Origin: Gammaproteobacteria bacterium
GTDB taxonomy: Bacteria; Pseudomonadota; Gammaproteobacteria; SZUA-229
Length of the DNA stretch: 64,000 nt
Direction of reading: 5' to 3'
Assembly: GCA_026195255.1 (NCBI GenBank)
Contig: JAPHSS010000014.1
Location: 62,001-126,000, forward strand
In this document: one piece after another, positions 1,899-20,997 of the stretch
Numbering within the stretch: position 1 is the first letter of the stretch
Layout of the letters: each line of letters opens with the position of its first letter
The notes under the pieces: model-generated
Seen by the model: only the letters and a program-made list of their open reading frames with translations
The model's database searches: none
Told to the model about the DNA's origin: nothing
Made by a program: the position numbers and the translations under genes

Positions 1899-2591
1899 TT
1901 AAGCTTTTTTACGTCTTGCTATTCCAGCTAAACCAATTAACCCTGAGCCGAATAACCAGACAGCTGCTGGCACTGGTATAACAGTAGTAACAGACATACC
2001 CAGACTAGATCCAGTCAGCGTTTGGTTTATTGTAGCTGTGCTTCCCGCATCAGGACTTGTGGCATATAACAAAGTACTTAATGTTAACTGAATGCTATTT
2101 GTACTGTCCCACATACCTGTGGTCATGTCATAACTTAACTCACCCTGCCAGCTGTTTTCACCCGGTATAGATAAATCAGTTATATTCAGGTAACTTGTTT
2201 GTTGTGTGAAAATATTATCTGAATCCATTACACGAATTGAACTTGAAACATCAACCGTACCATTACCTGTCGTGTTATATGTGCCACCTTCTATAATACC
2301 AACACTTGAAAAACTATAACCGTCTTTAGCAGTTACAAATACTGAGCCAGTATTTGAAAATAGAGTTGTTCCATCACCATTCAAGGCACTTGCTTCAAAT
2401 GTTGAGGGTGTTGCGAAAATGGTATCTCCACTTATCTGCATTGTGCCGTAGGCAAGAGTGCCTGTATCCGCGTCATCATAATAGAAATCAACAGTATTTC
2501 CCGAGCCAATATGAACAATTGCAGAATTAGCGATAGCTGGCGATAACATGGCAAGAATAAGTGATGTTTTTACAAAATATGAGCTTTTCAT
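1899..2591 (-). CDS. PEP-CTERM (VPxPAA-type) sorted surface protein
   Basis: 230 residues. An N-terminal signal peptide (K-S-S-Y-F-V-K-T then a hydrophobic run ending near I-A-N-S-A) is followed by a Gly/Ser/Thr-rich secreted body of no recognised family and a C-terminal sorting signal: V-P-V-P-A-A-V-W-L-F, a hydrophobic helix and the basic tail A-R-R-K-K-A. This tripartite tail is what exosortases recognise; the protein is expected to be processed at the inner membrane and released into or attached to the EPS matrix. It stands far from the EPS locus, as PEP-CTERM genes usually do. A sigma-54-like promoter lies about 60 bases upstream. Ligand or function is unknown. Confidence 0.87.
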   Translation of the reverse strand: MKSSYFVKTSLILAMLSPAIANSAIVHIGSGNTVDFYYDDADTGTLAYGTMQISGDTIFATPSTFEASALNGDGTTLFSNTGSVFVTAKDGYSFSSVGIIEGGTYNTTGNGTVDVSSSIRVMDSDNIFTQQTSYLNITDLSIPGENSWQGELSYDMTTGMWDSTNSIQLTLSTLLYATSPDAGSTATINQTLTGSSLGMSVTTVIPVPAAVWLFGSGLIGLAGIARRKKA

Positions 2592-2648
2592 TTGTTATGA
2601 ATCCCTTTAAGCCTGAATTTATCATTAATTTATTTATTAATTAACTTC

Positions 2649-2667
2649 AAGCAAAAAACACACCAAT
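2649..2667 (-). promoter_or_regulatory. Candidate sigma-54 (RpoN) promoter of the PEP-CTERM gene
   Basis: On the minus strand the sequence reads TTGGTGTGTTTTTTGCTT. It has the invariant GG-N10-GC geometry (GG at 2664-2663, GC at 2652-2651) and matches the consensus TTGGCACG-N4-TTGC at most informative positions. It sits about 60 bases before the ATG. RpoN control of PEP-CTERM genes through PrsK/PrsR is known in XrtA organisms; its use here is inferred. Confidence 0.68.
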
Positions 2668-2708
2668 AATTGTAACTATTTGATTTTAAATGATTTAATT
2701 TAACTTAA

Positions 2709-2724
2709 TCATCTGAATAGGTGA
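2709..2724. promoter_or_regulatory. Candidate enhancer-binding (UAS) site, TCATCTGAATAGGTGA
   Basis: Imperfect palindrome about 50 bases upstream of the -24/-12 element. It matches 13 of 16 bases of the palindrome upstream of the other PEP-CTERM gene (41549-41564). Shared geometry is TCAYC-N5-RGGTGA. It is a plausible binding site for a sigma-54 activator of the PrsR type. Confidence 0.5.
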
Positions 2725-3256
2725 TTGACTATACAAAGTGTATATTATCCCGACTATTGCCCTGTGTTTATATCAGGAATGAAGGATTATTTAAAATAAA
2801 ATCAAAAGGTTATTGTTTTTTGCGTTTTCATAAAAACACAATCGATTGTCGTTTTACCAGTGATATATCCCTTTAAACCTGACGGCTTTTGAAGAACTTG
2901 ATTTGCATGGTGGGGTTTATAGGCAAATTACATTTTACTATCTGAATTTTAGCATTAAAGCGTTGTATCGACCGATTAAGTGCCTGGACTAATGACAAGC
3001 TTCATACTTGATGTAGGTTGTTTTTATGGATGTGTAAGTTAATCCAACACTATTTGACTGTCTATTATGGGTAAGTTTACACTTTTCAAGCGAGAAATTC
3101 CGTTAACGGCTAACGGCTGGGAGGCCCACTCAATGTGTAATCAGACATTAGGCATACTGCTAGAGTGGTGAATTTCTTCTCATCTATGGTCGGTGTGTTT
3201 TCTGTGGGGTTTTTGATTCTGCTCCTGTAAGGCGATATGTTGGGGAAATTGAAATG
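2725..3256. other. Intergenic stretch without recognisable gene
   Basis: Between the UAS of the PEP-CTERM gene and the end of the CBS-domain gene I see no open frame with a family signature, no tRNA and no strong terminator. The short AACGGCTAACGGCT direct repeat near 3106-3120 is the only notable structure. Confidence 0.5.
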
Positions 3257-3679
3257 TTATGCCAGTTTGTTTATAGTTATAAAAAAATTTATTAGATCTT
3301 TCCGGCTAACAATGCCACACAGCTTATTATCAGCATCTACAATAACAATTCGACCTACACGTTTCCTGATTATAGTGAATAGAGCTTTTTTAACAGGCGT
3401 TTCAGGATTCAGTTTAATGACATCTTTTTCGACCTTAATAATCAGGGGTAATTCACCTAGTTTTAAATGTAGTTTACCTGCCGCAACCTCTGTAATTATA
3501 TCGAGTGTTGAAACAATGCCGATAACATTCTGTTCAAAATCAACCACGGGAAAGCCGGTTACATTTTTTTCTTTTGCCAGTTTCAATACTTTATTAACCG
3601 TTGTGTTTAACGTTACACTCATAACGGGTGAGGTCATAATGTCTTTAATTAGAGTTGATTGATCAACAGATTCTGTCAT
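3257..3679 (-). CDS. Tandem CBS-domain protein
   Basis: 140 residues comprising two CBS repeats: I-K-D-I-M-T-S-P-V with the following V-T-G-F-P-V-V-D and G-I-V-S-T-L-D-I, then a second block with G-R-I-V-I-V-D-A-D and G-I-V-S-R-K-D-L. CBS pairs bind adenine nucleotides such as AMP, ATP or c-di-AMP and act as energy or ligand sensors; no effector domain is fused here, so it probably acts on a partner. I chose the ATG at 3679 because a GGA-containing ribosome site lies about 9 bases before it; an ATG 7 codons further upstream is possible. It is monocistronic by its surroundings. Confidence 0.8.
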   Translation of the reverse strand: MTESVDQSTLIKDIMTSPVMSVTLNTTVNKVLKLAKEKNVTGFPVVDFEQNVIGIVSTLDIITEVAAGKLHLKLGELPLIIKVEKDVIKLNPETPVKKALFTIIRKRVGRIVIVDADNKLCGIVSRKDLINFFITINKLA

Positions 3680-4183
3680 TTTGATATCCGTGCATACCAT
3701 AAAAAATAGTTACAATTTGGTGATCAGAGAATGTGCCTAAAGCTTCTTCCTGGTTAGTACAGTCATATTGGAGCTCTTTAGCGTCACAAATTCCTGCGTC
3801 TAATAGTTAAAAACTACAGACTTTAGTTAGATATACAGCTTTATATTACATTCTTAAAATTAATCACTTTATGAATTATATAGTACAAAAGCACGTCACC
3901 AGACAAATTAGGTGCTGATCAGGTTTCTATTTAACGCATTTTACGCAACGCGAATATTCATAGATAATATTCTGAATGCCTGCTCAGGTCGTAAGTTGTC
4001 ATTGAATAAGTCTGAAAACTGTAAGATTGTCCTGACTACGTCCGTCTGTTGTCAGCGTGATAGAGCTGGCCTGGTCATTGATACCTGGTTATTCTGAAAT
4101 TGGCTATTGGCCAGTTTTTTGTGTTAGCTACATGGGGGTAATCTTAACTAGTGGTCAATTGTGGGTTGCAGTCACCTATGTAG
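3680..4183. other. Intergenic stretch with a weak terminator and an inverted repeat
   Basis: No convincing gene. At 4097-4120, AAATTGGC and GCCAGTTT form a stem (7 of 8 pairs) followed by a T-run, a possible plus-strand terminator. TAGCTACAT (4125-4133) and ATGTAGCTA (4178-4186) form a 9-bp inverted repeat whose right arm covers the stop codon of the WYL gene; it may end that minus-strand transcript, although it lacks a T-tail. Confidence 0.45.
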
Positions 4184-5077
4184 CTACATAAAAGCCCAGC
4201 CCGCGAAAGGCTCTATTTCATCTCTATTGCTTACAATTAACTGATATGCGTTCGGGTTTAATGAAAAATCTGAAGTCGTATCCACTTTCATCTGTTGTAA
4301 TAAGTAGCCGACTAACGAGCGCCTAACCTGTAGTTCTATAATGCCGTCTAACATATTGTAGTCATAACTCAGTGCCAGGTGTTGTTTGTCTGATAGTGCA
4401 GGGTGTGCTTGCAGTTTTAATGTGATTAACTCCATCCAGTCGTCATCATAGTTCTGGCTGGATTCTGCTTCCAGTTCGAGTTTTTCTGCTTCAGTAAAAC
4501 GCGATAATACGAAGTCTCTAAAATCATAATGCTCATGATCATAAGCGCGCACATGCCAGCGCAAACCATTATTGACCAGTGCATGGGGTTCTATAATTCT
4601 GCTTTGCTGTGTTATTTCTCGTTGACTTAATGAATGATAGTTAACTTTCAACTGGCTTTTGTTTTTCATTGCGCGAATGAGCTGGGCTAAAACGGCTTTT
4701 TTGGGCAGGCGAACCGGAAAGGGCATTTCTTCTACGCTTATGCCATAAATCGGCTCATTACCAGACGGGTTATCTATTGATAACAGGTTCTGGGCAAACA
4801 TTTTAAGAACGCTTTGTGGGCTTAAGTCTGCAAATACTTCATCAAATTTGTCGCTGGGTACAAAGCTAAACAGGCTAGGGTTGTATTCAAGGTTATGCGG
4901 TGCGAGATCGTTGTATAACTTAAGGTCTTTGGTAGCGGCCGGGTCAGAAATGCCATATGCCTTTGCCAGCATGCTGCGACTAATGTGGCCATTGTAATAA
5001 GCCATTATTTCTATGAATTGTAATCGCTGACGAGTCGCAAATTTAATCTCGTGCAGCATTTTTATATTATCAGCCAT
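4184..5077 (-). CDS. WYL-domain transcriptional regulator, BrxR/CapW-like
   Basis: 297 residues in the BrxR/CapW order: an N-terminal winged helix-turn-helix (about 10-70, with R-Q-R-L-Q-F-I-E and Y-G-I-S-D-P-A-A-T-K-D-L), a WYL domain (about 123-200, with V-N-Y and R-W-H-V-R-A-Y-D then F-R-D-F-V-L-S-R) and a C-terminal WCX-like extension. These dimeric repressors or activators sense nucleic acid ligands, apparently single-stranded DNA in characterised members, and control phage-defence operons (BREX, CBASS) or DNA-damage genes. No defence operon is here; instead it is divergent from recA, with one perfect palindrome between them. Autoregulation and control of recA are inferred from that layout. 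Function beyond this is unknown. Confidence 0.85.
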   Translation of the reverse strand: MADNIKMLHEIKFATRQRLQFIEIMAYYNGHISRSMLAKAYGISDPAATKDLKLYNDLAPHNLEYNPSLFSFVPSDKFDEVFADLSPQSVLKMFAQNLLSIDNPSGNEPIYGISVEEMPFPVRLPKKAVLAQLIRAMKNKSQLKVNYHSLSQREITQQSRIIEPHALVNNGLRWHVRAYDHEHYDFRDFVLSRFTEAEKLELEAESSQNYDDDWMELITLKLQAHPALSDKQHLALSYDYNMLDGIIELQVRRSLVGYLLQQMKVDTTSDFSLNPNAYQLIVSNRDEIEPFAGWAFM

Positions 5078-5091
5078 GATTCTCTCTTGAT

Positions 5092-5120
5092 TTTACAGCG
5101 CTACTGTTTGTTGCTGTAAA
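5092..5120. promoter_or_regulatory. Inverted repeat in the WYL gene leader
   Basis: TTTACAGC (5092-5099) and GCTGTAAA (5113-5120) are perfect 8-bp arms separated by 13 bases, just upstream of the WYL start codon. It could be a second operator or a leader stem-loop. It is not a LexA box: the arm order and spacing are wrong. Confidence 0.4.
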
Positions 5121-5141
5121 GGTAAATTCTTATTGATGGTA

Positions 5142-5170
5142 AATATAGTATACCTAATACTTTTTATCAA
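5142..5170 (-). promoter_or_regulatory. Sigma-70-type promoter for the WYL regulator
   Basis: On the minus strand TTGATA (5170-5165), a 17-base spacer and TATATT (5147-5142). The -35 lies inside the 31-bp palindrome, so a protein bound there would block it. Confidence 0.6.
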
Positions 5171-5186
5171 CATGATAAAAAGTATT
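5156..5186. promoter_or_regulatory. 31-bp perfect palindrome, candidate WYL operator between regulator and recA
   Basis: Arms AATACTTTTTATCA (5156-5169) and TGATAAAAAGTATT (5173-5186) are perfect 14-bp inverted repeats around the 3-base centre ACA. The palindrome covers the -35 of the WYL promoter and the first two bases of the recA -35. Long, nearly perfect palindromes upstream of their own gene are the rule for BrxR/CapW regulators. Confidence 0.8.
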
Positions 5187-5213
5187 GACATAATAAAATG
5201 TATCCACTAATCT
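5185..5213 (+). promoter_or_regulatory. Sigma-70 promoter of recA
   Basis: Consensus TTGACA (5185-5190), a 17-base spacer, TAATCT (5208-5213). The -35 abuts and overlaps the palindrome. No CTGT-N8-ACAG LexA site is found in the whole 5078-5287 interval. Confidence 0.72.
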
Positions 5214-5287
5214 ACAACTATACCGCAGCGCAATAACGCGTTATGCAAAGAATAGTGATAACTAAATTAACGATTAGGGGAATAAAA

Positions 5288-6370
5288 ATGGATGACAACA
5301 AGAAAAAAGCATTGAGTGCAGCATTAAGTCAGATCGAAAAGCAGTTTGGTAAAGGTTCTGTTATGCGCATGGGTGATGACGTGAATGTAAATATAGAGGC
5401 TATATCGACAGGTTCTATTGCACTGGATGTTGCGCTGGGCATAGGTGGTTTGCCTAAAGGGCGTGTTGTTGAAATCTATGGGCCTGAATCATCGGGTAAA
5501 ACAACTCTGACTTTGCAGGTTATTGCTGAGGCGCAAAAGGCGGGTGGTACCTGTGCGTTTGTTGATGCTGAGCATGCGCTTGATCCAAGTTATGCTGAAA
5601 AGCTGGGTGTTAATGTTGATGAGTTGCTGGTTTCTCAGCCTGATACAGGTGAGCAGGCGCTGGAAATTACAGACATGCTGGTTCGTTCTGGTGCGGTGAG
5701 TGTGCTGGTTATTGACTCGGTTGCTGCGTTAACACCTAAAGCTGAAATTGAAGGTGATATGGGTGACTCTCATATGGGGCTTCAGGCCCGTTTACTGAGT
5801 CAGGCATTGCGTAAGTTAACGGCTAATATAAAACGTTCTAATACGCTGGTTATTTTTATCAACCAGTTGCGTATGAAAATTGGTGTTATGTTTGGTAATC
5901 CTGAAACGACAACCGGTGGTAATGCGCTTAAATTCTATTCATCTGTACGTCTTGATATTCGTCGAATCGGTGCAATCAAACGAGGTGAGGAAATTATTGG
6001 TAACGAAACCAAGGTCAAGGTGGTGAAGAATAAAGTAGCGCCGCCGTTTAAAACCGTAAACTTCGAAATACTCTACGGTGAGGGTATATCCCATGAAGGT
6101 GAAATTATAGATATGGGGGTTAACTGTAAAATTATAGATAAGGCAGGCGCCTGGTATTCATATAATGGGGACCGCATTGGTCAGGGTAAGGACAAGGTGC
6201 GTAAGTTTATGAAGGATAACCCGGCGATAGCCGATGAGATTGAGGCTAAGATTCGTACGGAATTAATGCCAAGCAAAGAAGAGATTGCCGCAGCGGCTGT
6301 GCTGGCTGAGACGGCAGAGAAAAACGAGGAAGTAGAGGTGGATATGCCGGAGCTTGCTGAAGAGAAATAA
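5288..6370 (+). CDS. recA: Recombinase RecA
   Basis: 360 residues, full length. RecA forms filaments on single-stranded DNA, catalyses strand exchange and is the co-protease for LexA. The Walker [10 protein letters not shown] is at residues 65-73, Walker B is L-V-I-D-S-V-A-A-L, and the N-G-strand [14 protein letters not shown] loop region and an acidic C-terminal tail are all present. I place the start at the ATG at 5288, with AGGGG at 5277-5280, and not 15 codons upstream, because the protein then begins M-D-D-N-K-K-K-A-L like its relatives. Regulation appears unusual: no LexA box, but a WYL-type palindrome over the -35. Confidence 0.98.
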
Positions 6371-11352: not shown

Positions 11353-11373
11353 TTTGAATAAGATCAAAGAATA

Positions 11374-11395
11374 GGAGAGCTGGCCGAGTGGCTGA
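11374..11395 (+). pseudogene. 5' fragment of tRNA-Ser
   Basis: The first 22 bases of the neighbouring tRNA-Ser (acceptor strand and D-arm, GGAGAGCTGGCCGAGTGGCT then GA) recur here exactly 200 bases upstream of the complete gene, together with about 7 upstream bases with one mismatch. Similarity stops abruptly at 11395, so it cannot fold as tRNA. It is either a remnant of a second tRNA-Ser gene or the scar of an older insertion. Confidence 0.8.
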
Positions 11396-11573: not shown

Positions 11574-11663
11574 GGAGAGCTGGCCGAGTGGCTGAAGGCG
11601 CACCCCTGCTAAGGGTGTATATTGGAAACAGTATCGAGGGTTCGAATCCCTCGCTCTCCGCCA
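11574..11663 (+). tRNA. tRNA-Ser(GCU)
   Basis: 90 bases with encoded CCA. Acceptor GGAGAGC pairs with GCTCTCC; the anticodon loop is CTGCTAA (anticodon GCT); a long variable arm follows, as in all serine tRNAs; the T-loop is TTCGAAT. Its 3' 60 bases are duplicated at 20621-20680, so the gene is the integration site of the element that follows and its 3' part was restored by the element. Confidence 0.97.
11604..11663 (+). repeat. attL: 60-bp direct repeat, tRNA-Ser 3' half
   Basis: From CCCTGCTAAG in the anticodon arm to the terminal CCA, identical over 60 bases to 20621-20680. Identity ends sharply on both sides. Confidence 0.92.
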
Positions 11664-11706
11664 TATATAGGCTTATTAGCCTTTTTGTGATTTTGCCTCT
11701 ATTTGA

Positions 11707-11728
11707 TTGTAAGTGCACCGTAAGTGCT
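11707..11728 (+). promoter_or_regulatory. Left arm-type site (tandem GTAAGTGC)
   Basis: Two tandem copies of GTAAGTGC spaced 10 bases apart, 44 bases inside attL. Nearly the same 22 bases occur inside attR at 20506-20527. Paired arm sites at both ends are what lambda-type integrases or AlpA-like directionality factors bind. Confidence 0.6.
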
Positions 11729-11751
11729 AATAACCAAATAAGAGGCCAGTC

Positions 11752-11895
11752 ATGGATAAATCAAATAATAACGTTATATATTTAAAAGATAGAAAAACAC
11801 GAGAACATGACGAAAAAGAACTGTCATATGGACAGAAATTGCTATTAGAGAAGCTACTTGAACGCTTTCAAGAAACGCACCCAAAAACAATCTAG
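11752..11895 (+). CDS. Small hypothetical protein (47 aa) next to attL
   Basis: ATG at 11752 with AGAGG at 11741-11745, six bases away, then 47 codons to TAG. The product is highly charged (starts M-D-K-S-N-N-N-V-I-Y-L-K-D-R-K, then Y-G-Q-K-L-L-L-E-K-L-L-E-R-F) and probably alpha-helical. It is the only plus-strand gene candidate of the element and lies just inside the left arm site, a usual position for small accessory or control genes. No family is recognised; it could be chance, as it is short. Confidence 0.45.
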   Translation: MDKSNNNVIYLKDRKTREHDEKELSYGQKLLLEKLLERFQETHPKTI

Positions 11896-11931
11896 AGTAC
11901 TAAAGATTTGTTTTTAAAGAATGCTGATCAC

Positions 11932-12270
11932 TTAATCAGCATCTAATAAATATAAACGATATTTCAGAAAAATTATCTCACACAGCATCGTAGCTCGTTC
12001 AACACGAATTCTTTTATTTAAAAAACCGATAATCGACCTTACTGTATTTTTTTTATCAACATCACTAATTTCATTTTGAAATTCCCACGTAAAGGGATGA
12101 TTATCCATCTCCATCTCCATCAAGCCAAATAAATAATCAAAATTTTTACGTTTAAACCCCTCCACATGCTCTGGTAGTACAACCCTATCAATTCCAATAT
12201 TGATAATATTCGTTTTTTGAATTTTTAACTTATCACTTTTAACTGTTGAAAAGCCCAATACATCCGACAC
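11932..12270 (-). CDS. Hypothetical protein of the element (112 aa)
   Basis: GTG start at 12270, two bases after the stop of the tape-measure-like gene, indicating translational coupling. The sequence has no recognised domain; it is mixed in charge, with R-V-V-L-P-E-H-V-E-G-F and a C-terminal segment R-V-E-R-A-T-M-L-C-E-I-I-F-L-K-Y-R-L. By position it could be a tail- or capsid-related accessory protein. Function unknown. Confidence 0.6.
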   Translation of the reverse strand: MSDVLGFSTVKSDKLKIQKTNIINIGIDRVVLPEHVEGFKRKNFDYLFGLMEMEMDNHPFTWEFQNEISDVDKKNTVRSIIGFLNKRIRVERATMLCEIIFLKYRLYLLDAD

Positions 12271-12272
12271 AA

Positions 12273-14165
12273 TTACCCCCTTATTATTTCGCTCGCATTT
12301 CGTGAGTCACCTTTAATTAAAATAACGTCACCAAAACTTACAGCATCTTGTAGCGCTGGTATTAAGGTATCTTGAATCATTCGTTCATCCATCATGCCGT
12401 TTATATTAACAGTAACAGAACCGCCAGTTGCACCAGGTTGCTGATTTTCCGAATCATTAACTGGATCAAAAGCACTCTGCGAAAAACTGGTTGGTGCGAT
12501 ACTCGATCCTGCCCCTGATCCACCCCCGCCACCTAAAAGAGCGGTACCGGCAATTAAACCTACAGATGCATAACCCACACCACGAACCCACGATGATAAC
12601 GCCCCCGTTTGATCAATCGTTAGCGCCTTCGCTGCAGCTACCTCAGTAGACACAACCGCTTGCGCAATAGCTAGCCCTTTTTCTATTGCAAATATAATTT
12701 TTGAAGCTTTCTTGTGCTCACCAGGTAACGCATTAATAAAATCAGAAGCCGCTCGCGTAAACGTGGACAAAGTACCTAAGATTAAACTGGATTTTTGTTG
12801 CTCAATTCTCAGCTGTTTATCAGCACTTTGTTGATGCAGTTTATCAAGCTCATCAAACTGTTTTTCAACTGCAATTAATTCCGCTTCCAGCTCATTCTCT
12901 GTTAAACCTAAAACACCAGGTATTTTTGTATCATCACTGGTTTCTTCAAAACTACCAGAAACTTCTGACTGAGCACTGGCCGCATCTTGATTAAATAATT
13001 CAGCTTTCGCATTATTCAACGCAATAATAGACATGGCCGCATTATTCAACGCAATAATAGACATGGCCGCATTATCAACAACCTCACGCTCCCTAATGAA
13101 TTTTTCTGCGATTTCATCAAGCTGCTCACCCAATGGCTGCAGTGATTCACTAGAGGCTTTTATAGCATCAGAAAATTGACGCATTGATAAAGCTTTTTCA
13201 TCAAGCCCTATTTTATCAAGCCCTGTCGCTAACGAACCTAGCAACGTTCCCCATAGACCTTCAATTGAAGAAATAGCGCTATCCCATGCAAACATAACCG
13301 TAGCGGCCGACGCTTCACCCATTTGCGCAACACCAGTCCAACCTTTATCAATAGCCGCAAAAAACGAAACAAAAATATTATTTGCATGTGTAACCGTATC
13401 ATTAACAATCACATCAAGACCGCCCGCACTTTTTGACATATTCAAAAACGCATCAGCCGCCGATTCAATATGAGGAGACAAACCAACTGCAATCTGCTGA
13501 CCAATACCTTTGCTTGAAGCTTTTACTTTTAATAACGCATTATTAGCACGCTCAATTTTAGCCGCATCAACACGATTAATAGCTATACCAAACTGTTCAG
13601 CTTCTAACGCCGCTGCATTTAATCCTTCTTTTCCTAAATCTAATGTGTTAACTAAATTAACACCTTCAGAATCGAATAATTTAAATGCCAGTCGTACTTT
13701 ATCAGACTGATTTTCGACATCTGTCATTGATTCAGCGATCGCTGAAAAAGCTTTATCAGGTGATGAATTAGCGAGCGCCCGGGCATCAAGACCCAACTCT
13801 TTTAATGCATCCTTTGCCTCACCCGTACCCCGCGCCGCTTCTGCGATTCTGCGCGTCATACGCTGCAATGCCATATCTAACGTATTAGAACTAACGCCCG
13901 TTTGTTCAGCTGCATGACGTAAAGCAGCTAGTTTTTCAGTTGTAATACCTAACTTATCAGATGTTTTAGCTAACGCATCAACCGTTTGCAGTGATGACTT
14001 AACAAGCAAACCAAAACCACCCGCACCAGCCAAACCAATAACCGCATTTTTAACTGAAAACAAAGATGAACCAACACCATTTAATGATGTTTTTGCTGAT
14101 TTCATGCCGCGTACAAATTTTCCAGCATCGGCTGTAATTTCTACTTTATATTGATTATTACTCAT
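12273..14165 (-). CDS. Phage tail tape-measure-like protein
   Basis: About 630 residues. The N-terminus (Y-K-V-E-I-T-A-D-A-G-K-F-V-R-G-M-K-S-A-K-T-S) and the following A-K-T-S-D-K-L-G-I-T-T-E-K-L-A-A-L and S-S-N-T-L-D-M-A-L-Q-R-M blocks are typical of TP901/lambda-type tape measure proteins, as are the long helical middle and Gly-rich C-terminal part. Tape measures set tail length and pass into the host cell; this is short for the family. I use the ATG at 14165; a TTG five codons upstream is less likely. A 30-bp tandem duplication lies near its middle. No tail tube, sheath, chaperone or tip gene accompanies it, which is odd. Confidence 0.75.
   Translation of the reverse strand: MSNNQYKVEITADAGKFVRGMKSAKTSLNGVGSSLFSVKNAVIGLAGAGGFGLLVKSSLQTVDALAKTSDKLGITTEKLAALRHAAEQTGVSSNTLDMALQRMTRRIAEAARGTGEAKDALKELGLDARALANSSPDKAFSAIAESMTDVENQSDKVRLAFKLFDSEGVNLVNTLDLGKEGLNAAALEAEQFGIAINRVDAAKIERANNALLKVKASSKGIGQQIAVGLSPHIESAADAFLNMSKSAGGLDVIVNDTVTHANNIFVSFFAAIDKGWTGVAQMGEASAATVMFAWDSAISSIEGLWGTLLGSLATGLDKIGLDEKALSMRQFSDAIKASSESLQPLGEQLDEIAEKFIREREVVDNAAMSIIALNNAAMSIIALNNAKAELFNQDAASAQSEVSGSFEETSDDTKIPGVLGLTENELEAELIAVEKQFDELDKLHQQSADKQLRIEQQKSSLILGTLSTFTRAASDFINALPGEHKKASKIIFAIEKGLAIAQAVVSTEVAAAKALTIDQTGALSSWVRGVGYASVGLIAGTALLGGGGGSGAGSSIAPTSFSQSAFDPVNDSENQQPGATGGSVTVNINGMMDERMIQDTLIPALQDAVSFGDVILIKGDSRNASEIIRG
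13011..13070 (-). repeat. 30-bp perfect tandem duplication inside the tape-measure gene
   Basis: Two identical 30-base units (13011-13040, 13041-13070) duplicate ten residues (A-A-M-S-I-I-A-L-N-N) in frame. The perfect identity indicates recent slippage. Confidence 0.92.
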
Positions 14166-14185
14166 ATGAATATCCGCCAATAAAA

Positions 14186-14273
14186 ACCCCGGGGGGTATT
14201 CCCCCCAGGGGTACCACTAATGCATGGTAGCGCAATCCCATGCATACTCTACACAGTGGAGGTTAAACACTGT
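14186..14273. terminator. Three consecutive hairpins between capsid and tape-measure genes
   Basis: ACCCC-GGGGGG / CCCCCC-a-GGGGT (14186-14212, loop TATT) is a strong GC stem; ATGCATGG / CCATGCAT (14220-14245) and ACAGTG / CACTGT (14253-14273) follow. The first is a likely transcription stop or attenuator for the minus-strand transcript leaving the capsid gene, although its T-tail is poor. The tandem arrangement within 90 bases is unusual. Confidence 0.6.
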
Positions 14274-14285
14274 ATGAAGTTCTAT

Positions 14286-16058
14286 TTATGCATTTCTACA
14301 AAATGCACCTGTATGTCGCAAACCAAAATCAACATCCATAATCACTCTAAGAGAAACAGAGCCCTTAGCAAAATTTGCTCCACCACCATCAGCTTCAATC
14401 TCAACTACCCCCCAAGTACCCATAATGAAATTATTCCATGAACCAAGCAGTATCGTATTTGCAGGAACATTTTTAGTTGCTTGAGCAGGCATTCCATTTA
14501 CCACACCATTTTCCCAAAGAAACTGAGCCGTACCTGCTGCTTTTTCTGTTGTTTTCAAATTGCCAGCAACTGATGGTGTCATTACATATGACATTGCAGT
14601 GTCAACGTTTGCATTTAATAAACTTGTTTCAAAGCCAACAAGCTCTGCAAATGTCGGTGAACCTGGTGCCAAAATTGTTTGAGTTAACACCCCTGTAGTA
14701 TTAAGAATACCCAGAGGAGTATTTCCAGTTCCGTCACCAGCTATTGCTTTTGCATCTATCTCAATACCAATTGTTTCAGCAATATCATTTGTTATTATAC
14801 TGTCAAGAACCAAGGAACTTTGTGTCAGCATTTTATGAGAAATAGTAACCAAGCCACCGACAGTTTTAGGGCTTAAACTAATTTTACCTAAGGTTGGCTC
14901 ACTTGAAGTTATTGAATCTGCATCATCACCAGCAATCCAATAGCCTGTCGATGAGGCTGATTTTAATGGTATATCCACATCACCAACCAAACCATTAAGT
15001 AACGTAATAGGCTTATTCATAAGCACCGATTTATTACGTAAAATATCAATGAAGCTTGCATGCTGAAGGTCGGTAGCAATCACATTATTCCCTGTGCCTC
15101 CTGCAGTTAATGAACGCTCACTTGGCGACCCTGTAGGCATAAAGAAACCACGAGTATCACGCCCCATCTTTTTAGCCAGGTCACGCGAAACTTCCATTTC
15201 GAAACCGGCATCTCTCAGAGCTTTAGGGTCAACCATTGCGCGAACAGCTTTAATAATACTAAAACCTTTATAGTCGCTATTATCAAAACCCTGCATTGAT
15301 CTTGCTGGAGACAAATCCAATGGCTCTGCATTACTAAGAAAATCTAAACATCGCAAATTAAAATCAGCTGTACTGGTTCCGGCTCGAATAGCTTCAACGC
15401 TTTCATCTAACAGTTGGGGATGATCAGCACCAAGCATAGCTGCAACGCTTCTAATTTCTTCTTGTCGTTCCGCCTCAGCTTCACGATCTAATGACAGATC
15501 TAACTTTTCACGCTGAATTCGTTTATTTTCTGATCTTGTTTTTTTCTTTTCCATAACTTTTACACCTTTATATTTTGATTGCTGCTGGCTTCTATTAATA
15601 CCAACGCTTGAATCTGCTGGGATTGATACAACTGATGCCTCTAATAATTCCCATCGTTTGGCTGTAACAACTGGCACTCCATCAAGCTCACCAGACTCTT
15701 CATTTTCATGAACGATATAACCAATACTCATATTTCGTATTATTCCGGCTAGAACATCTGCCCAAATTTCTTTAGCTTGCGCACTATTTCCAAAACGCAA
15801 ATCAGCATGCAAACGATCACCTTCAATACGAACATTTTCAGCTACGCCAATAATTGCCCCTCTTTCATGATCAAACAACAGTGGAAGCCCATCAGCCGCC
15901 CTAGTTAAATCAATTGCTTCAGACGAATGACTTAGTACTTCATAACCAAAATATCGTTCATACGGTTCTGTGCTTGATAAACTAGCAGGTACAATTTTTT
16001 CTTTTTCATTTGCTCTAACCCGATCCATCGTAAATTGTCGAAATAATTTTTCTTCCAT
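14286..16058 (-). CDS. HK97-type prohead protease fused to major capsid protein
   Basis: 590 residues with three parts. Residues 1-160: U35/S78 prohead protease, with D-H-E-R-G around His64, M-S-I-G-Y around Ser111 and L-L-E-A-S-V-V-S-I-P-A-D around Glu140 as likely triad. Residues 170-210: charged helix (delta/scaffold domain). Residues 300-590: HK97-fold capsid, with T-P-L-G-I-L-N-T-T-G and the L-Y/S-K-T-V-G-G-L-V-T-I-S block. In HK97 these are separate; fusions are known. The single chain could build a procapsid by itself. AGGTG precedes the ATG. It has no terminase or portal partner, so DNA packaging would need a helper phage. Confidence 0.9.
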   Translation of the reverse strand: MEEKLFRQFTMDRVRANEKEKIVPASLSSTEPYERYFGYEVLSHSSEAIDLTRAADGLPLLFDHERGAIIGVAENVRIEGDRLHADLRFGNSAQAKEIWADVLAGIIRNMSIGYIVHENEESGELDGVPVVTAKRWELLEASVVSIPADSSVGINRSQQQSKYKGVKVMEKKKTRSENKRIQREKLDLSLDREAEAERQEEIRSVAAMLGADHPQLLDESVEAIRAGTSTADFNLRCLDFLSNAEPLDLSPARSMQGFDNSDYKGFSIIKAVRAMVDPKALRDAGFEMEVSRDLAKKMGRDTRGFFMPTGSPSERSLTAGGTGNNVIATDLQHASFIDILRNKSVLMNKPITLLNGLVGDVDIPLKSASSTGYWIAGDDADSITSSEPTLGKISLSPKTVGGLVTISHKMLTQSSLVLDSIITNDIAETIGIEIDAKAIAGDGTGNTPLGILNTTGVLTQTILAPGSPTFAELVGFETSLLNANVDTAMSYVMTPSVAGNLKTTEKAAGTAQFLWENGVVNGMPAQATKNVPANTILLGSWNNFIMGTWGVVEIEADGGGANFAKGSVSLRVIMDVDFGLRHTGAFCRNA

Positions 16059-16650
16059 ATTTCACCTTTTTCTTAATACCTGAAACGCAAAAAGCGACTC
16101 CTGGTAAAATGTTATGCACAATGGCAATACACCTTCCAGAAGCCGCTTTTAGCTTCCTCGTTTTTTGCAGATAATATTTAAATTGATCAAGCGCGTAGCA
16201 ATTGAAATCAATTAAATACCCACATTGCAAAAACGTGGTAAAAATAAATCTTAAAATAAACTTAACACCTATTAAAAAATTAAACAATAAGAATTTAATT
16301 CTTAACATTATTATGTTTACAAAAATATATCGCCACTCCATTACCACCACAACCCCCTATAGACAAACAGATCTGTAAAGAAAACGCGCCTCGAATTACC
16401 CGCGTACAAATGACTAGAGAAGGACCCAATGACTACCCCTTTGCCTATACCTACTATCGTCATTTTTTTATTATCAATATCAATCATTTATATTTAATGC
16501 CTACAGTGCCTATACTTAAATCACATACTTTGTAACGCGCGCACATGCACACTCTCATCAATAACCTTAAGCACTATCGTCATAACCAATAACCCTATGT
16601 ATTTAAAAAGGTTTACTTGCCGACACCACCATAGGCATGGGCTAGGCACT
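16059..16650. other. 592-bp gene-free region of the element
   Basis: AT-rich and without credible genes. AAAAAGCG (16089-16096) and CGCTTTT (16144-16150), flanked inside by CCTGG and CCAG, make a long stem-loop upstream of the capsid gene. TGCCTATAC and CTATCGTCAT each occur twice between 16440 and 16585, in an iteron-like manner. The region separates replication genes from capsid genes and may contain the capsid promoter, a replication origin or a packaging site. These roles are inferred. Confidence 0.4.
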
Positions 16651-17970
16651 CTAAGCACCAAACACCTCAACCCAATCTTTCACCGCATCCTGGAATTCTT
16701 TCCTACATCTAGTAAGCCAGTCCACCTTACTCATACCATCAGGCTGTTCCGAATCTAAATGAAACACAAATGTACCTTTATACTCTCTCATACCAACACG
16801 ATATCTCTGGTTCTTTAGTTTTATTAATTGACAATCACATTTGCCAATGCGCGTGCCAAACTCAGTTAAGCTAACATGAAACTTCTCACCTTCACGCTTA
16901 CACCATTGTTGATAGTATTTGTATAGATCATCTGTTAAACATGGCTTTACCTGAACTGTCAATTCACCCGCCAGCCAACAACTAATAAATCGCTCATCAG
17001 ACTTCATTGAAAGCTGTATCAAGTCATTCTTTGCTCTGGTCATCACTGGCTCTGTAAACTCATTGAAGCTGCCTATATCAAGACTCATCAAGTAATAATA
17101 CAAAGCTGCTATTCCACCGTTATCACGCTCACGAGCAACTGAATCATAAAAATCTTTATCTTTTTTGGGAGGCGTCCATAAGACTTGATACCGACGATCA
17201 TCATGATCAGGTGCCACAGGTTGCAAGTGATTAGAAGTAAAAACAAAATTGGCGTAATTTTTTTCCTTTCGGACATTTATATTTTTTTCATTTATGTTCC
17301 ACTCAGGCTCCGTGATCATATTTTTCATGGGCCCAGATTGCTCATACATACCCCGGCGTGTACTAACCTCATTACCTATAACAAACAGCTTTCGACTAGC
17401 CCATCCATTGAAATCACTTTTTAAATCATTTTGAGTGATGATTGAAGAATACTCACCGTAAATACCTTCAATCGCACTTAATATCAGATTTTTTCCAACA
17501 CCCTCACCACCATGAATAACAATAGCTGTGCGCATTTTTGCACCAGGATTTTTTAATGGATAAGCAAACCACCTGAGAACCCACTCAAAGACAATATTGT
17601 TTTGTTCACACATCAACAACAATAACTCAAGTAATTTGGAACACTCTCCTTTGACGGGTTTAATTTTCAATCCATTGAATGTATTAAAGCCCCCATTTTC
17701 ATGTGCAGTACTAGTAGGATCAAATACAATATTATCTTTAGGTATGCGCGTTGTAACAGGATCATTAATATATTTGCGATAAATTTCATTACCAACAGTC
17801 GTTGAAAGATCGGTCGATGAAAGAAAAGTACGTGTATCTTTATCTAAGATGCATGCGCCTTTTCCGACAGCAACAGCGAATCGTTTTTGAACCCCCTCAT
17901 AACTAATATCAATACCAATAGAGTCACCTTTCTCACCTCTATTAATATCAAGAACCCCACCATTTAACAT
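16651..17970 (-). CDS. SF3-type replicative helicase (DUF5906/P4-like ATPase)
   Basis: 439 residues. Walker A is H-G-G-E-G-V-G-K-N; Walker B-like L-F-V-I-G-N-E-V and the sensor region N-F-V-F-T-S-N-H followed by D-D-R-R-Y are those of the D5/P4-alpha and NrS-1-polymerase-associated helicases (SF3). These unwind DNA at phage, plasmid or satellite origins. The protein begins only about 100 residues before the ATPase core and has no zinc-binding or AEP primase domain, so priming would need a host or helper enzyme. It overlaps the preceding gene by 7 bases. Confidence 0.82.
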   Translation of the reverse strand: MLNGGVLDINRGEKGDSIGIDISYEGVQKRFAVAVGKGACILDKDTRTFLSSTDLSTTVGNEIYRKYINDPVTTRIPKDNIVFDPTSTAHENGGFNTFNGLKIKPVKGECSKLLELLLLMCEQNNIVFEWVLRWFAYPLKNPGAKMRTAIVIHGGEGVGKNLILSAIEGIYGEYSSIITQNDLKSDFNGWASRKLFVIGNEVSTRRGMYEQSGPMKNMITEPEWNINEKNINVRKEKNYANFVFTSNHLQPVAPDHDDRRYQVLWTPPKKDKDFYDSVARERDNGGIAALYYYLMSLDIGSFNEFTEPVMTRAKNDLIQLSMKSDERFISCWLAGELTVQVKPCLTDDLYKYYQQWCKREGEKFHVSLTEFGTRIGKCDCQLIKLKNQRYRVGMREYKGTFVFHLDSEQPDGMSKVDWLTRCRKEFQDAVKDWVEVFGA

Positions 17971-18320
17971 GTAGACTCCCTTGCCTTATATTTGATAAAT
18001 AACTTAGAAGAGTACTGATCCCATATAACGACTGAATCTGCCCCCGACTTAAGGAGCTCAGTAACCAATGCAATTACATCGTGATCACTGGGCCCCGGGA
18101 ACCTTTCAATAATTATTCTGCAATTATTTACTGGCCATTTAAAACTGGCAGGAGATTTACCATCAGGTAATACTAAAGGTATAATATCGTTCGGTGATTT
18201 TTGCCATGACTTTGCACTTGTCCAAGCGCCTAAACCTAAACACACAATAACCAGATAGGGGAGGTTATTCCATTTTAGGCGTTGAGCAAGATTAGCCCCA
18301 TAAGCAGGTAGCCGCTTCAT
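17964..18320 (-). CDS. Hypothetical protein between AlpA and helicase (118 aa)
   Basis: Its ATG overlaps the AlpA stop codon by one base and its end overlaps the helicase start, so the three form a tightly coupled replication/control operon. It has a basic start (K-R-L-P-A-Y-G) with L-V-I-V-C-L-G-L-G-A-W in the middle and V-I-W-D-Q-Y near the end. Similar small proteins stand next to AlpA in other integrated elements as I recall, without a known role. Confidence 0.65.
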   Translation of the reverse strand: MKRLPAYGANLAQRLKWNNLPYLVIVCLGLGAWTSAKSWQKSPNDIIPLVLPDGKSPASFKWPVNNCRIIIERFPGPSDHDVIALVTELLKSGADSVVIWDQYSSKLFIKYKARESTC

Positions 18321-18535
18321 TACTGAGAAATTTTTGCTTCATATTCAATAACAGCAGCGACCGGTATTAATCGACGCGTTCTTATTTTCACGCTTGCCAA
18401 TTCACCATCATTCATAAGATCATAAATAGTGCTACGACCTAAGCCCCAGCGATCTTTTAACTCATCAATACCGTAGTAGATCTTTTCAGTGACATTATTT
18501 TGTTTTGTTGGCATAACCACATATCCCATATTCAA
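18320..18535 (-). CDS. AlpA-like helix-turn-helix regulator/excisionase
   Basis: 71 residues, MerR-like HTH: Y-Y-G-I-D-E-L-K-D-R-W-G-L-G-R-S-T-I-Y-D-L-M then R-R-L-I-P-V-A-A-V-I-E-Y-E. AlpA proteins activate integrase or satellite operons and assist excision; in Gram-negative phage-inducible islands AlpA is the master activator induced by the helper. Translation may begin at the first ATG or seven codons later. It is upstream of the helicase operon. Confidence 0.8.
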   Translation of the reverse strand: MNMGYVVMPTKQNNVTEKIYYGIDELKDRWGLGRSTIYDLMNDGELASVKIRTRRLIPVAAVIEYEAKISQ

Positions 18536-18613
18536 ATTTGAACGTGTAGCTCAATCACGTATGAGCTTGTATGTGGTTATTATGAATTGATAAAAAAGAT
18601 AAGTAATAAGTGG

Positions 18614-19303
18614 TTACAATGTTTTTTTATTATTAACCCTGCTCTTTATTGATTCGAACCCCGAGTTAAAACGATCTATCCCTGATTTAACCTGGTCTCT
18701 TGTTATATCAATATCTAAAAATTCTCCGGTTTTTCTTATAAATTTATAGAAAGGGCTGTTATAACTTGCGGCAGGTCGTTTATTAAATATCCTAAAATAT
18801 AGAGGGAAGAGCGAATATGATAATTCTTCATTATATTCATTTCTTGGTGCTGTTCTAATCTTTATTCTTTTTGCCTCATCTTCAGATGAAATATTTATAG
18901 AATCTAAAATAGATTCAAGAACCTTCCATAGTCTTTCATCATAATCAGAAATGGAATAACCCGGGTTATTCACATTTATTTCATTAGCCAAATCTAAAGC
19001 ATTGTATTTATCACCATGACGAATAGAGTCGTTTAAATTTAAAGCCAGGCTCATCAATACGCTAGGGTGAGCATTAGTCAAATTAGTTTTAAGCGTATTA
19101 CACGCATTTTTAATATTAAGTATTTGACGTTTTTTTTCAGCTAGTGTTAAGACAAATTCACGTTGTTCTTGCCAATATTGGATATAAGTTTCTGACTCAT
19201 TTATAAAGCTATCCCTTAATTTATTGAATTTATTGGATTTTTTCCCCCATACCTCGACCTTTAATTCATTTATTTGAATTTCTGTGAATAAATTATGTTT
19301 CAT
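18614..19303 (-). CDS. Hypothetical protein downstream of integrase (229 aa)
   Basis: Start taken at the ATG at 19303, which overlaps the integrase end by 11 bases; the frame runs ten codons further upstream. The product is rich in Lys, Asn and Glu and largely helical (R-E-F-V-L-T-L-A-E-K-K-R-Q-I-L-N-I-K), with no domain I recognise. The lower GC and position just after int suggest a cargo gene of the element. Function unknown; defence is possible but there is no motif to support it. Confidence 0.65.
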   Translation of the reverse strand: MKHNLFTEIQINELKVEVWGKKSNKFNKLRDSFINESETYIQYWQEQREFVLTLAEKKRQILNIKNACNTLKTNLTNAHPSVLMSLALNLNDSIRHGDKYNALDLANEINVNNPGYSISDYDERLWKVLESILDSINISSEDEAKRIKIRTAPRNEYNEELSYSLFPLYFRIFNKRPAASYNSPFYKFIRKTGEFLDIDITRDQVKSGIDRFNSGFESIKSRVNNKKTL

Positions 19304-20459
19304 ATTCAATGCCTTTAAGTTTCTCAACAGCATCAGCTTTATGACTAGATGCTAAGTGTGAATACCTTAATGTCATGGTTAAATCAGCATGCCCGAGCAG
19401 TTCTTGGACAGTTTTAAGGTCAACACCTGCCATAACCAGCTTTGATGCAAAATCATGCCTTAAATCATGAAATCTAAAATCACTTATTCCAGAGCTCTCA
19501 ATTAGCTTATTCCAGACCCCTTGGATTGAACCTATATTAAATACCCGCTCATTTACTGATTGTTTGTACCACTTCTTTAACATGGTATATGCTGCTTTGT
19601 TTAATGGAATATGACGTGTTTTACTGCTTTTTGCAGTTTCACCTCTGATAGTGACCTGGGCAGTCTGAAAATTAATGTCTTTCCATGTTAAGCTTAGAAT
19701 CTCACCTTTTCTCATTCCTGTGTTTTTTGCCAGTATGACCATAGGCTTTAAATAATCGGTATAAGCCACCAAGTTTAAGTCTGCTAATAAATCATTCTTT
19801 TTACGCATTAAAGACTCACGATAGTTAAGGGCCTCAAATAATGATTTTTCTTCTTCAGCATTAAGAAACCTGATTCGTCCAAGATCATCTGTTTTTATGG
19901 GTTTTAGACCGACTAACGGACTTTTTTCAATAACACCCCATTCAACAGCCTTATTTAGAACGGCTTTTAATGTATTTAAGTAGCGCTTTATTGTACTGTC
20001 CGCTTTTCCCTCATCCTTTTGTTTTGCGCTCCAACGCTCAATAAGACGGATTGATATATCTGTCATATCTTTATCATGAAGAAACCTAAAGGCAGCTAAA
20101 TTATCTAAATTCCTGTATGGAGGCTTACGAGTTGATTTAAACCAGGGCTTATATTCTTTATCAAGAAACTCAATTAAGGTATTTATAGATGTATCTCCTC
20201 GTTTTTTCTTTGGTATGTAACCGTTTTTTTCTTCTTCAGCATGTATATCAATCACTAATTGACGCGCCCGGCCTAATGTCATTTTTGATACAAAACCGAG
20301 TCGTTCTCGCTTGCCACGGCGATATTCGCAATAGTAAGACATTGAACCAGAAGGCTGTACCCGCAAAATAAAGCCCTTTAATCCGGTGTCTCGTACTTCA
20401 TAAGGCTTTGGTTTTGGCTTAAGTTTTTTAATTAATGGATCTGAAATTTTTTTTTGCAT
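19293..20459 (-). CDS. int: Tyrosine integrase of the element
   Basis: 388 residues, P4/lambda-type with an N-terminal arm-binding DUF4102-like region (D-P-L-I-K-K-L-K-P-K-P, Y-E-V-R-D-T-G-L-K-G-F), a SAM-like core-binding domain and the catalytic domain. Catalytic residues are visible: R in N-T-G-M-R-K-G-E, H-x-x-R in F-H-D-L-R-H, L-G-H-A and the nucleophile Y in L-R-Y-S-H-L. I chose the ATG at 20459 behind AGGAGG rather than a start 32 codons upstream in the arm-site region. It lies 160 bases from attR, the normal position for int, and recombines within the tRNA-Ser anticodon-to-CCA segment. Confidence 0.95.
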   Translation of the reverse strand: MQKKISDPLIKKLKPKPKPYEVRDTGLKGFILRVQPSGSMSYYCEYRRGKRERLGFVSKMTLGRARQLVIDIHAEEEKNGYIPKKKRGDTSINTLIEFLDKEYKPWFKSTRKPPYRNLDNLAAFRFLHDKDMTDISIRLIERWSAKQKDEGKADSTIKRYLNTLKAVLNKAVEWGVIEKSPLVGLKPIKTDDLGRIRFLNAEEEKSLFEALNYRESLMRKKNDLLADLNLVAYTDYLKPMVILAKNTGMRKGEILSLTWKDINFQTAQVTIRGETAKSSKTRHIPLNKAAYTMLKKWYKQSVNERVFNIGSIQGVWNKLIESSGISDFRFHDLRHDFASKLVMAGVDLKTVQELLGHADLTMTLRYSHLASSHKADAVEKLKGIEYET

Positions 20460-20505
20460 ACCTAAAGCTTCCTCCTTTGCATAAAAAAGAAGGAGATAAT
20501 CTCTC

Positions 20506-20527
20506 TTGTAAGTGCACTGTAAGTGCA
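20506..20527 (+). promoter_or_regulatory. Right arm-type site (tandem GTAAGTGC)
   Basis: Same tandem pair as at 11707-11728, with one internal base change, between the integrase start and attR. Position overlapping the int leader suggests that bound integrase or AlpA could also regulate int transcription. Confidence 0.6.
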
Positions 20528-20620
20528 ATATACTATATTCGAGCGTTACGAGCAAGCACGTACAAGATGTAACTTGTTGATTTTATTCGTAACTATATGA
20601 ATTGAATAGAGGCGCAATCT

Positions 20621-20680
20621 CCCTGCTAAGGGTGTATATTGGAAACAGTATCGAGGGTTCGAATCCCTCGCTCTCCGCCA
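20621..20680 (+). repeat. attR: 60-bp copy of the tRNA-Ser 3' half
   Basis: Identical to 11604-11663. The bases before it do not complete a tRNA, so it is a tRNA fragment left by integration. Confidence 0.92.
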
Positions 20681-20741
20681 AACATAAAAAAGCCCCCCCT
20701 GTTTTTCAGGGGGGGCTTTTTTATGTTTGGCGGAGAGCGAG
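20667..20741. terminator. 35-bp perfect palindrome joining the attR tRNA end to a strong terminator
   Basis: Arms 20667-20701 and 20707-20741 are perfectly complementary with the loop TTTTT. The core AAAAAAGCCCCCCCTG / CAGGGGGGGCTTTTTT is a strong bidirectional terminator, and the outer 15 bp are the tRNA acceptor/T-arm 3' end and its inverted copy. It would end transcription of the original tRNA and of anything entering from the right. Confidence 0.85.
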
Positions 20742-20803
20742 TATTTGATAAGAACCACTTTCGAAAAAATCGCCCGGAGCGATTTTTAACAGGGTGAGTG
20801 CTT
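20695..20803 (+). repeat. 109-bp direct repeat, copy 1 (contains paired-hairpin copy B)
   Basis: Identical to 20889-20997 except for five transitions. It contains the terminator right arm, the inverted tRNA end and the paired hairpins: AAAAATCGC / GCGATTTTT (20765-20787, loop CCGGA), linker AA, CAGGGTGAG / CTCACCCTG (20790-20814). Further right GGGC-AGGGATA-GCCC recalls the third hairpin of copy A. Confidence 0.85.
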
Positions 20804-20888
20804 TTCTCACCCTGGCCACGCAGTGGTGAGGGCAGGGATAGCCCGAATAATCCCCGGACCAGACCACCAGTAAGTTATTAAGTTTAGA

Positions 20889-20997
20889 CCCCCTGTTTTT
20901 CAGGGGGGGCTTTTTTATGTTTGACGGAAAGCGAGTATTTGATAAGAACCACTTTCGAAAAAATCGCCTGGAGTGATTTTTAACAGGGTGAGCGCTT
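20889..20997 (+). repeat. 109-bp direct repeat, copy 2 (truncated paired hairpin, copy C)
   Basis: Hairpin 1 (20959-20981, loop CTGGA) is kept with one G.U pair in place of a Watson-Crick pair; hairpin 2 is broken after its left arm. A terminator CCCCCTG / CAGGGGG with a T6 tail opens the copy (20889-20916). Confidence 0.85.

Follow-up and report, generated by a model that had tools for sequence, protein, structure and literature searches.

RESULTS

A 9-kb element with capsid and tape measure genes is integrated at tRNA-Ser

We analyzed a 64,000-bp stretch of DNA (hereafter the window) from a member of the Gammaproteobacteria (SZUA-229; assembly GCA_026195255.1, contig JAPHSS010000014.1, positions 62,001 to 126,000), and within it an element integrated at a tRNA-Ser gene that spans window positions 11604-20680. 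A sequence-only reading had described this element as carrying an integrase, an AlpA-like gene, a superfamily 3 (SF3) helicase, a protease-capsid fusion, a tape measure gene, and 60-bp attachment (att) repeats. Family matches and a repeat search bore this out. The features that define the element are as follows.

11574..11663, + strand: tRNA-Ser(GCT), the integration target (ARAGORN, Rfam); its 3' 60 bp (11604-11663) are one att copy
20621..20680, + strand: second 60-bp att copy, identical to 11604-11663 (repeat search)
19293..20555, - strand: tyrosine integrase, 420 aa (phrog_1, 2.9e-72; Pfam Phage_integrase, 4.4e-33; NCBIfam)
18320..18535, - strand: HTH_17 excisionase/AlpA-type regulator, 71 aa (above the Pfam and NCBIfam cut-offs)
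16651..17970, - strand: DUF5906/D5-like SF3 replicative helicase, 439 aa (PHROGs, Pfam, NCBIfam)
14286..16058, - strand: fusion of a prohead protease, a helical (delta/scaffold-like) linker, and an HK97-fold major capsid protein, 590 aa (phrog_617, 2.1e-119)
12273..14180, - strand: tape measure protein (TMP), 635 aa (phrog_9483, 1.3e-81)
13008..13067, - strand: in-frame tandem duplication within the central part of the TMP gene, perfect over 30 bp (10 residues; repeat search)

The two att copies start 9,017 bp apart and are identical over 60 bp (97% over 66 bp). All main genes are open and lie on the minus strand, and the GC skew flips over the element stretch only. The genes are ordered integrase, 239-aa protein, HTH_17/AlpA-type regulator, 118-aa protein, SF3 helicase, a 592-bp gap, protease-capsid fusion, TMP, and 112-aa protein. 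The regulator also matched Phage_AlpA, weakly and below the family cut-off.

The sequence-only reading had also noted that terminase, portal, connector, and lysis genes were missing. This held: no match to portal, terminase, connector, tail-tube, or lysis families was found within the element in PHROGs or Pfam, and the two stretches without an assigned gene (11670-11930 and 16059-16650) are too short for a portal or large terminase gene. The element has the makeup of a phage satellite: specific att sites enclose an integrase, a regulator, and genes for replication, and the set of virion genes is incomplete.

Three congeners of the host genome carry the same tRNA-Ser without the element. In one of them, G052, the left flank runs through the tRNA end directly into the right flank, over about 100 bp, forming an empty junction; in the other two (G050 and G051), the right side matched over the core only. 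Relatives with the same genes inside full prophages at this site, which the sequence-only reading had named as the sign of a deletion remnant, were not found among these congeners. The open genes, the lack of a relative in the host family, and the element-free tRNA in congeners are not what a degraded prophage would present.

Capsid fusion and tape measure protein

The capsid fusion matched the Pfam families Phage_capsid (4e-34) and Peptidase_S78 (9e-12). Its AlphaFold model (mean predicted local distance difference test score, 76) has a protease domain (about residues 1-144), a disordered linker, and an HK97-fold shell domain, with helices at about residues 188-300, the expected place of the delta/scaffold region. 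The best PDB match to the predicted structure was the capsid of marine siphophage R4C. As modeled, the protease-capsid fusion is complete. The candidate catalytic residues His64 and Ser111 were invariant in a 25-row alignment and are likely the protease residues.

Phage relatives of the capsid are distant, with a best identity of about 36% among 50,697 phage records. Single-protein scans with the capsid found no relative in genome_contigs, IMG/VR, the host family, or the host order. A scan of IMG/VR with a capsid alignment returned 80 loci, and where upstream DNA was present, almost all of these were ordinary phages with portal and terminase genes. A scan with an alignment of two satellite capsids returned one weak locus.

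Both ends of the TMP match phrog_9483 (profile positions 8-281 and 415-649), and the middle does not. The duplication at 13008-13067 reads as a recent 10-residue change of ruler length. The nearest relatives of the TMP are in marine phages or prophages (Alteromonas phage PB15, Glaciecola, and Pseudoalteromonas), where the TMP gene sits well downstream of the portal and capsid genes. Readable loci from a TMP-based scan of genome_contigs were likewise ordinary phages or prophages.

The capsid-TMP pair recurs in unrelated elements of the same size

We searched other bacteria for a capsid gene followed by a TMP gene. The surveys were samples of 370 and 397 genomes, partly overlapping, and were no census. 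The capsid scan covered 370 Gammaproteobacteria; the searches for the TMP family covered the class and the phylum, and the gene contexts were then read. Capsid-then-TMP arrangements without a portal or large terminase were found at loci L008, L112, L153, L196, L220, and probably L211, and all capsid-TMP elements found belong to the Gammaproteobacteria, the class of the window host. The first five of these and the window element have different integrases and replication genes beside the capsid-TMP pair. The members measure about 9.0-9.8 kb and are inserted at tRNA-Arg, tRNA-Pro, tRNA-Ser, tRNA-Thr, or fis. Conserved synteny without terminase at tRNA-Ser had been put forward as support for a satellite; the gene pair without large terminase did recur, but at other sites, mostly other tRNA genes, rather than at the same tRNA-Ser. 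The recurrence supports and extends the satellite reading. Some relatives (L153 and L154) also carry a small terminase gene, a point beyond the sequence-only reading.

L008, in genome G148, is integrated at tRNA-Arg between perfect 47-bp att repeats 8,953 bp apart, and the congener G254 has an exact, clean empty site. Its genes are ordered integrase, 191-aa protein, AlpA, helix-turn-helix (HTH) protein, RepA-like ATPase, protease-capsid fusion, TMP, and neck-type protein, with no portal or terminase. L112, at tRNA-Pro, measures 13.1 kb including a 3.4-kb insertion and about 9.7 kb without it. The insertion (about 2350-5772) is a recombinase transposon with three tyrosine recombinases that has broken the integrase. 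L153 lies beside tRNA-Ser, measures about 9.6 kb with a weak 15-bp repeat, and encodes a small terminase, capsid, and TMP. L196 (9,416 bp) is at tRNA-Thr, and L220 (9,774 bp) is in the fis region. The capsid assignment in L196 is weak (phrog_6538 and a match to L211), and L211 is a capsid and TMP pair on a short contig that ends before any integrase. Three loci with a capsid and no detected portal (L104, L105, and L106) were set aside because of contig ends or unclear context, as was L227 (integrase, TMP, and S49 protease), which is probably a prophage piece.

The window and L008 proteins had the longest branches in a tree of 78 capsids and did not group together, a placement compatible with one origin or with several. 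These branches, with the distant phage relatives, speak against recent derivation from a sampled phage.

Spacing between the two genes separated these elements from phages. The comparison included all fetched loci in which both genes were recognized; L196 was left out since its capsid fell below the threshold used. In the window element, L008, L112, L153, and L220, which all have a helicase and an integrase and lack both portal and TerL, the gap was 79-344 bp; in L211 it was 1,013 bp. The remaining loci all had gaps of 1,836 bp or more, and in nearly all of them portal and/or TerL was detected in the same stretch. One of the fetched loci, L246, is a Pseudoalteromonas prophage-like full phage with the same capsid type and TMP type as the window element.

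The TMP of L220 allowed a comparison with TMPs of full Escherichia coli prophages. Identity was about 75-98% over residues 1-250 and about 56-78% over residues 650-765 (the last 115), versus mostly 14-38% in the middle, and the L220 protein is 46-79 residues shorter. Conserved ends and a variable middle would be expected of a TMP whose ends are constrained by the helper tail proteins that they must fit and whose ruler portion can vary freely. The L220 TMP is also 94% identical to that of LR881103.1, which resembles a capsid-forming phage-inducible chromosomal island (cf-PICI). The TMP is a more informative gene than the sequence-only reading saw, because later work showed that TMPs encoded by satellites are incorporated into virions (PMC12987554).

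Other features of the element and its flanks

The remaining features lie inside the element ends and between the main genes.

11708..11729, just inside the left end: candidate integrase arm-type site, tandem TGTAAGTGCAC / CGTAAGTGCTA (repeat search)
20507..20528, just inside the right end: second candidate arm-type site, tandem TGTAAGTGCAC / TGTAAGTGCAA
18614..19333, - strand: 239-aa protein of unknown function, between the integrase and AlpA-like genes (open reading frame [ORF] list)
17964..18320, - strand: 118-aa protein of unknown function; its gene overlaps the start of the helicase gene (ORF list)
16059..16650, no strand: 592-bp stretch in which no gene was recognized, lying 3' of the helicase gene and containing the short direct repeats TGCCTATAC[CT]TA (x2) and ACTATCGTCAT (x2)
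11932..12270, - strand: 112-aa protein of unknown function, the last operon gene, 2 bp after the TMP gene (ORF list)

The 11-bp tandem repeats of the TGTAAGTGCAC type inside both ends are placed like integrase arm sites and may serve as such. Since the single motif, with one mismatch allowed, is no more frequent in the window than expected by chance, this suggestion rests on the tandem pairs at both ends and not on the motif count. The 592-bp stretch may contain an origin, a late promoter, or a packaging region. No family match was found for the 112-, 118-, or 239-aa proteins in PHROGs, Pfam, NCBIfam, or PADLOC, and the 112-aa protein had no homolog among the loci fetched for comparison. The slot between integrase and AlpA is occupied in L008, L112, L153, L196, and L220 by a gene for 155-237 aa that is unrelated to, or unmatched with, the 239-aa protein.

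Just outside the right att copy are a perfect 35-bp inverted repeat, which takes in the tRNA 3' end and a terminator-like stem (20667-20741), and a 109-bp direct repeat (95%; 20695-20997). Pieces similar to these right-flank repeats occur near the tRNA in G052. On the other side, 29 nt from the 5' end of the tRNA-Ser gene are repeated at 11367-11395, 200 bp upstream of the intact gene, and similar 5'-end pieces are present in congeners (L164 and L165).

DISCUSSION

A satellite that may supply its own shell and tape measure

The element is probably an integrative phage satellite with a reduced, recurrent "shell plus tape" design that takes its other particle parts from a helper. Judging from their gene families, the integrase and AlpA-like factor would carry out excision and integration, and the SF3 helicase would serve replication. 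After a helper phage enters the cell, the protease-capsid fusion would be made and form a small shell, probably sized for about 9-10 kb. The satellite TMP would also be made, and helper-encoded tail proteins would assemble around it, so that it would be incorporated into an altered tail. The helper would give the portal, terminase, connectors, tail tube, tail tip, and lysis functions, and the resulting particle would be chimeric in head and tail.

A wider proposal, to which we give about an even chance, is that this design recurs in Gammaproteobacteria with several origins from different phage sources, is held near 9-10 kb, and replaces exactly the helper shell and tail ruler. Such a satellite would set head size and tail length (or DNA delivery) and borrow nearly all else.

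Several observations weigh against the satellite proposal. At 415 and 363 aa, the TMPs of L008 and L112 are short, and most of their match falls in the N-terminal half, indicating that not every member need make a full ruler. Two loci, L150 (G266:C1) and L154 (G316:C43), encode a primase and a TMP and have no recognized capsid gene; L154 has, in addition, TerS and an S49 protease. No close relative of the window element was found in 54 genomes of the host family. The host assembly had no match to HK97-type or lambda-type portals (PF04860/PF05136) or to GpA-type terminase (PF05876); with no resident helper of these families, a helper would have to arrive from outside or belong to another type.

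Separately, L150 and L154 share a 'HEAGHA' peptidase-like protein and an apparent coiled-coil protein of about 200 aa immediately ahead of the TMP.

The element could instead be the deletion remnant of a full prophage that kept integrase, helicase, capsid, and TMP by chance. This is unlikely and is already disfavored. Full phages with both protein types exist (L246), and a deletion from capsid to TMP could in principle give the observed junction. However, it would take three separate deletions, one ahead of the capsid, one between it and TMP, and one after TMP, in an element whose genes are open and whose att copies are identical. The same outcome is also seen in unrelated elements whose integrases and replication genes differ. 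The neck-type gene that follows TMP in L008 lies between capsid and TMP in L246, and both the distance to phage capsids (at best about 36% identity in the 50,697 records) and the very long window and L008 branches fit poorly with a remnant.

It is also improbable that capsid and TMP act mainly as interference weapons, poisoning assembly of helper or rival phages by co-assembly while the satellite DNA travels in helper-type particles. The capsid homolog Ccm of SaPIbov5 does redirect capsid form through co-assembly and cannot form capsids alone (PMC8569155), tail assembly is a known defense target (PMC11364771, PMC12987554), and some member TMPs match in the N-terminal part only. Unlike Ccm, however, the window capsid protein is a complete fusion of protease, helical linker, and capsid; the window TMP keeps both conserved ends; and the only TMPs tested, those of the PLE satellites of Vibrio cholerae, are built into virions (PMC12987554).

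Descent from a cf-PICI by loss of portal, connectors, and terminase is very improbable: LR881103.1 and L220 share a TMP at the same fis site, suggesting that cf-PICI-like and shell-plus-tape elements exchange genes, but the window capsid is a protease fusion of phrog_617 whereas the cf-PICI-like capsid belongs to phrog_10 with a separate protease, and the window element and L008 have no cf-PICI-like genes beyond general families.

Comparison with known satellites

The proposed satellite shares parts with several described systems. Phage-inducible chromosomal minimalist islands (PICMIs) are also small marine satellites with an AlpA regulator, and DUF5906-type primases were among the markers used to search for them; they insert at fis and have no capsid-remodeling genes (PMC10803314), whereas the window element is in tRNA-Ser and has a capsid gene.

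The order integrase, HTH/AlpA, primase/helicase, and own capsid is like that of cf-PICIs as outlined in secondary accounts (Alqurainy et al. 2023, via PMC10690885 and PMC10803314), and capsid and protease are both present in the window element. The cf-PICIs encode portal, connectors, HNH, TerS, and TerL as well, averaging 14 kb (PMC10803314); the window element has none of these in 9 kb. A putative tmp gene has been noted in some cf-PICIs (PMC12987554, Extended Data Fig. 10). LR881103.1 (L234, 1-16548; 'Escherichia phage vB_KppS-Ant', 16,548 bp, source 'induced prophage') is a cf-PICI-like genome with integrase, primase, capsid, portal, connectors, TerS, and TerL, followed by TMP and no other annotated tail gene. 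Of three related fis-site E. coli elements opened, none had a TMP after TerL and one had a 'tail assembly protein' there (L238, E. coli 21AR0133, 19570-20148). The slot after TerL varies in these elements, being filled elsewhere by DUF3892 or a small hypothetical protein.

SaPIbov5 and PmCI172 likewise pair a satellite capsid homolog with helper-provided portal and packaging, according to the available portions of the reports (PMC8569155, PMC6092414), which mention no TMP in those satellites. Ccm has no fused protease and makes no shell alone, in contrast to the window capsid with its fused protease domain.

PLEs, like the window element, encode their own TMP, which is built into virions to give chimeric tails about 10 nm shorter. 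They differ in measuring about 18 kb, carrying a tail chaperone and hub protein, and remodeling the helper capsid by TcaP (PMC12987554), whereas the window element brings its own capsid protein. Tail-chaperone and hub families had no match in the 9,017-bp window element; TcaP itself was not searched for. The first report of satellite tail control dates from 2026 and concerns PLEs alone, with some indication of it in cf-PICIs (Nature 2026; PMC12987554).

Our literature searches, whose coverage left out most subscription papers and preprints, found no description of a satellite with only capsid and TMP. Precedents cover each half, the PLE TMP (PMC12987554) and the SaPIbov5 capsid homolog (PMC8569155); the two combined, with little else, are the new point. 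Capsid and TMP genes side by side in small gammaproteobacterial elements suggest that satellites commonly reset both head and tail, and these elements offer a compact system for asking why a satellite needs its own TMP, whether for the length of the tail, to match a small head, to deliver DNA, or to evade defenses that target tails.

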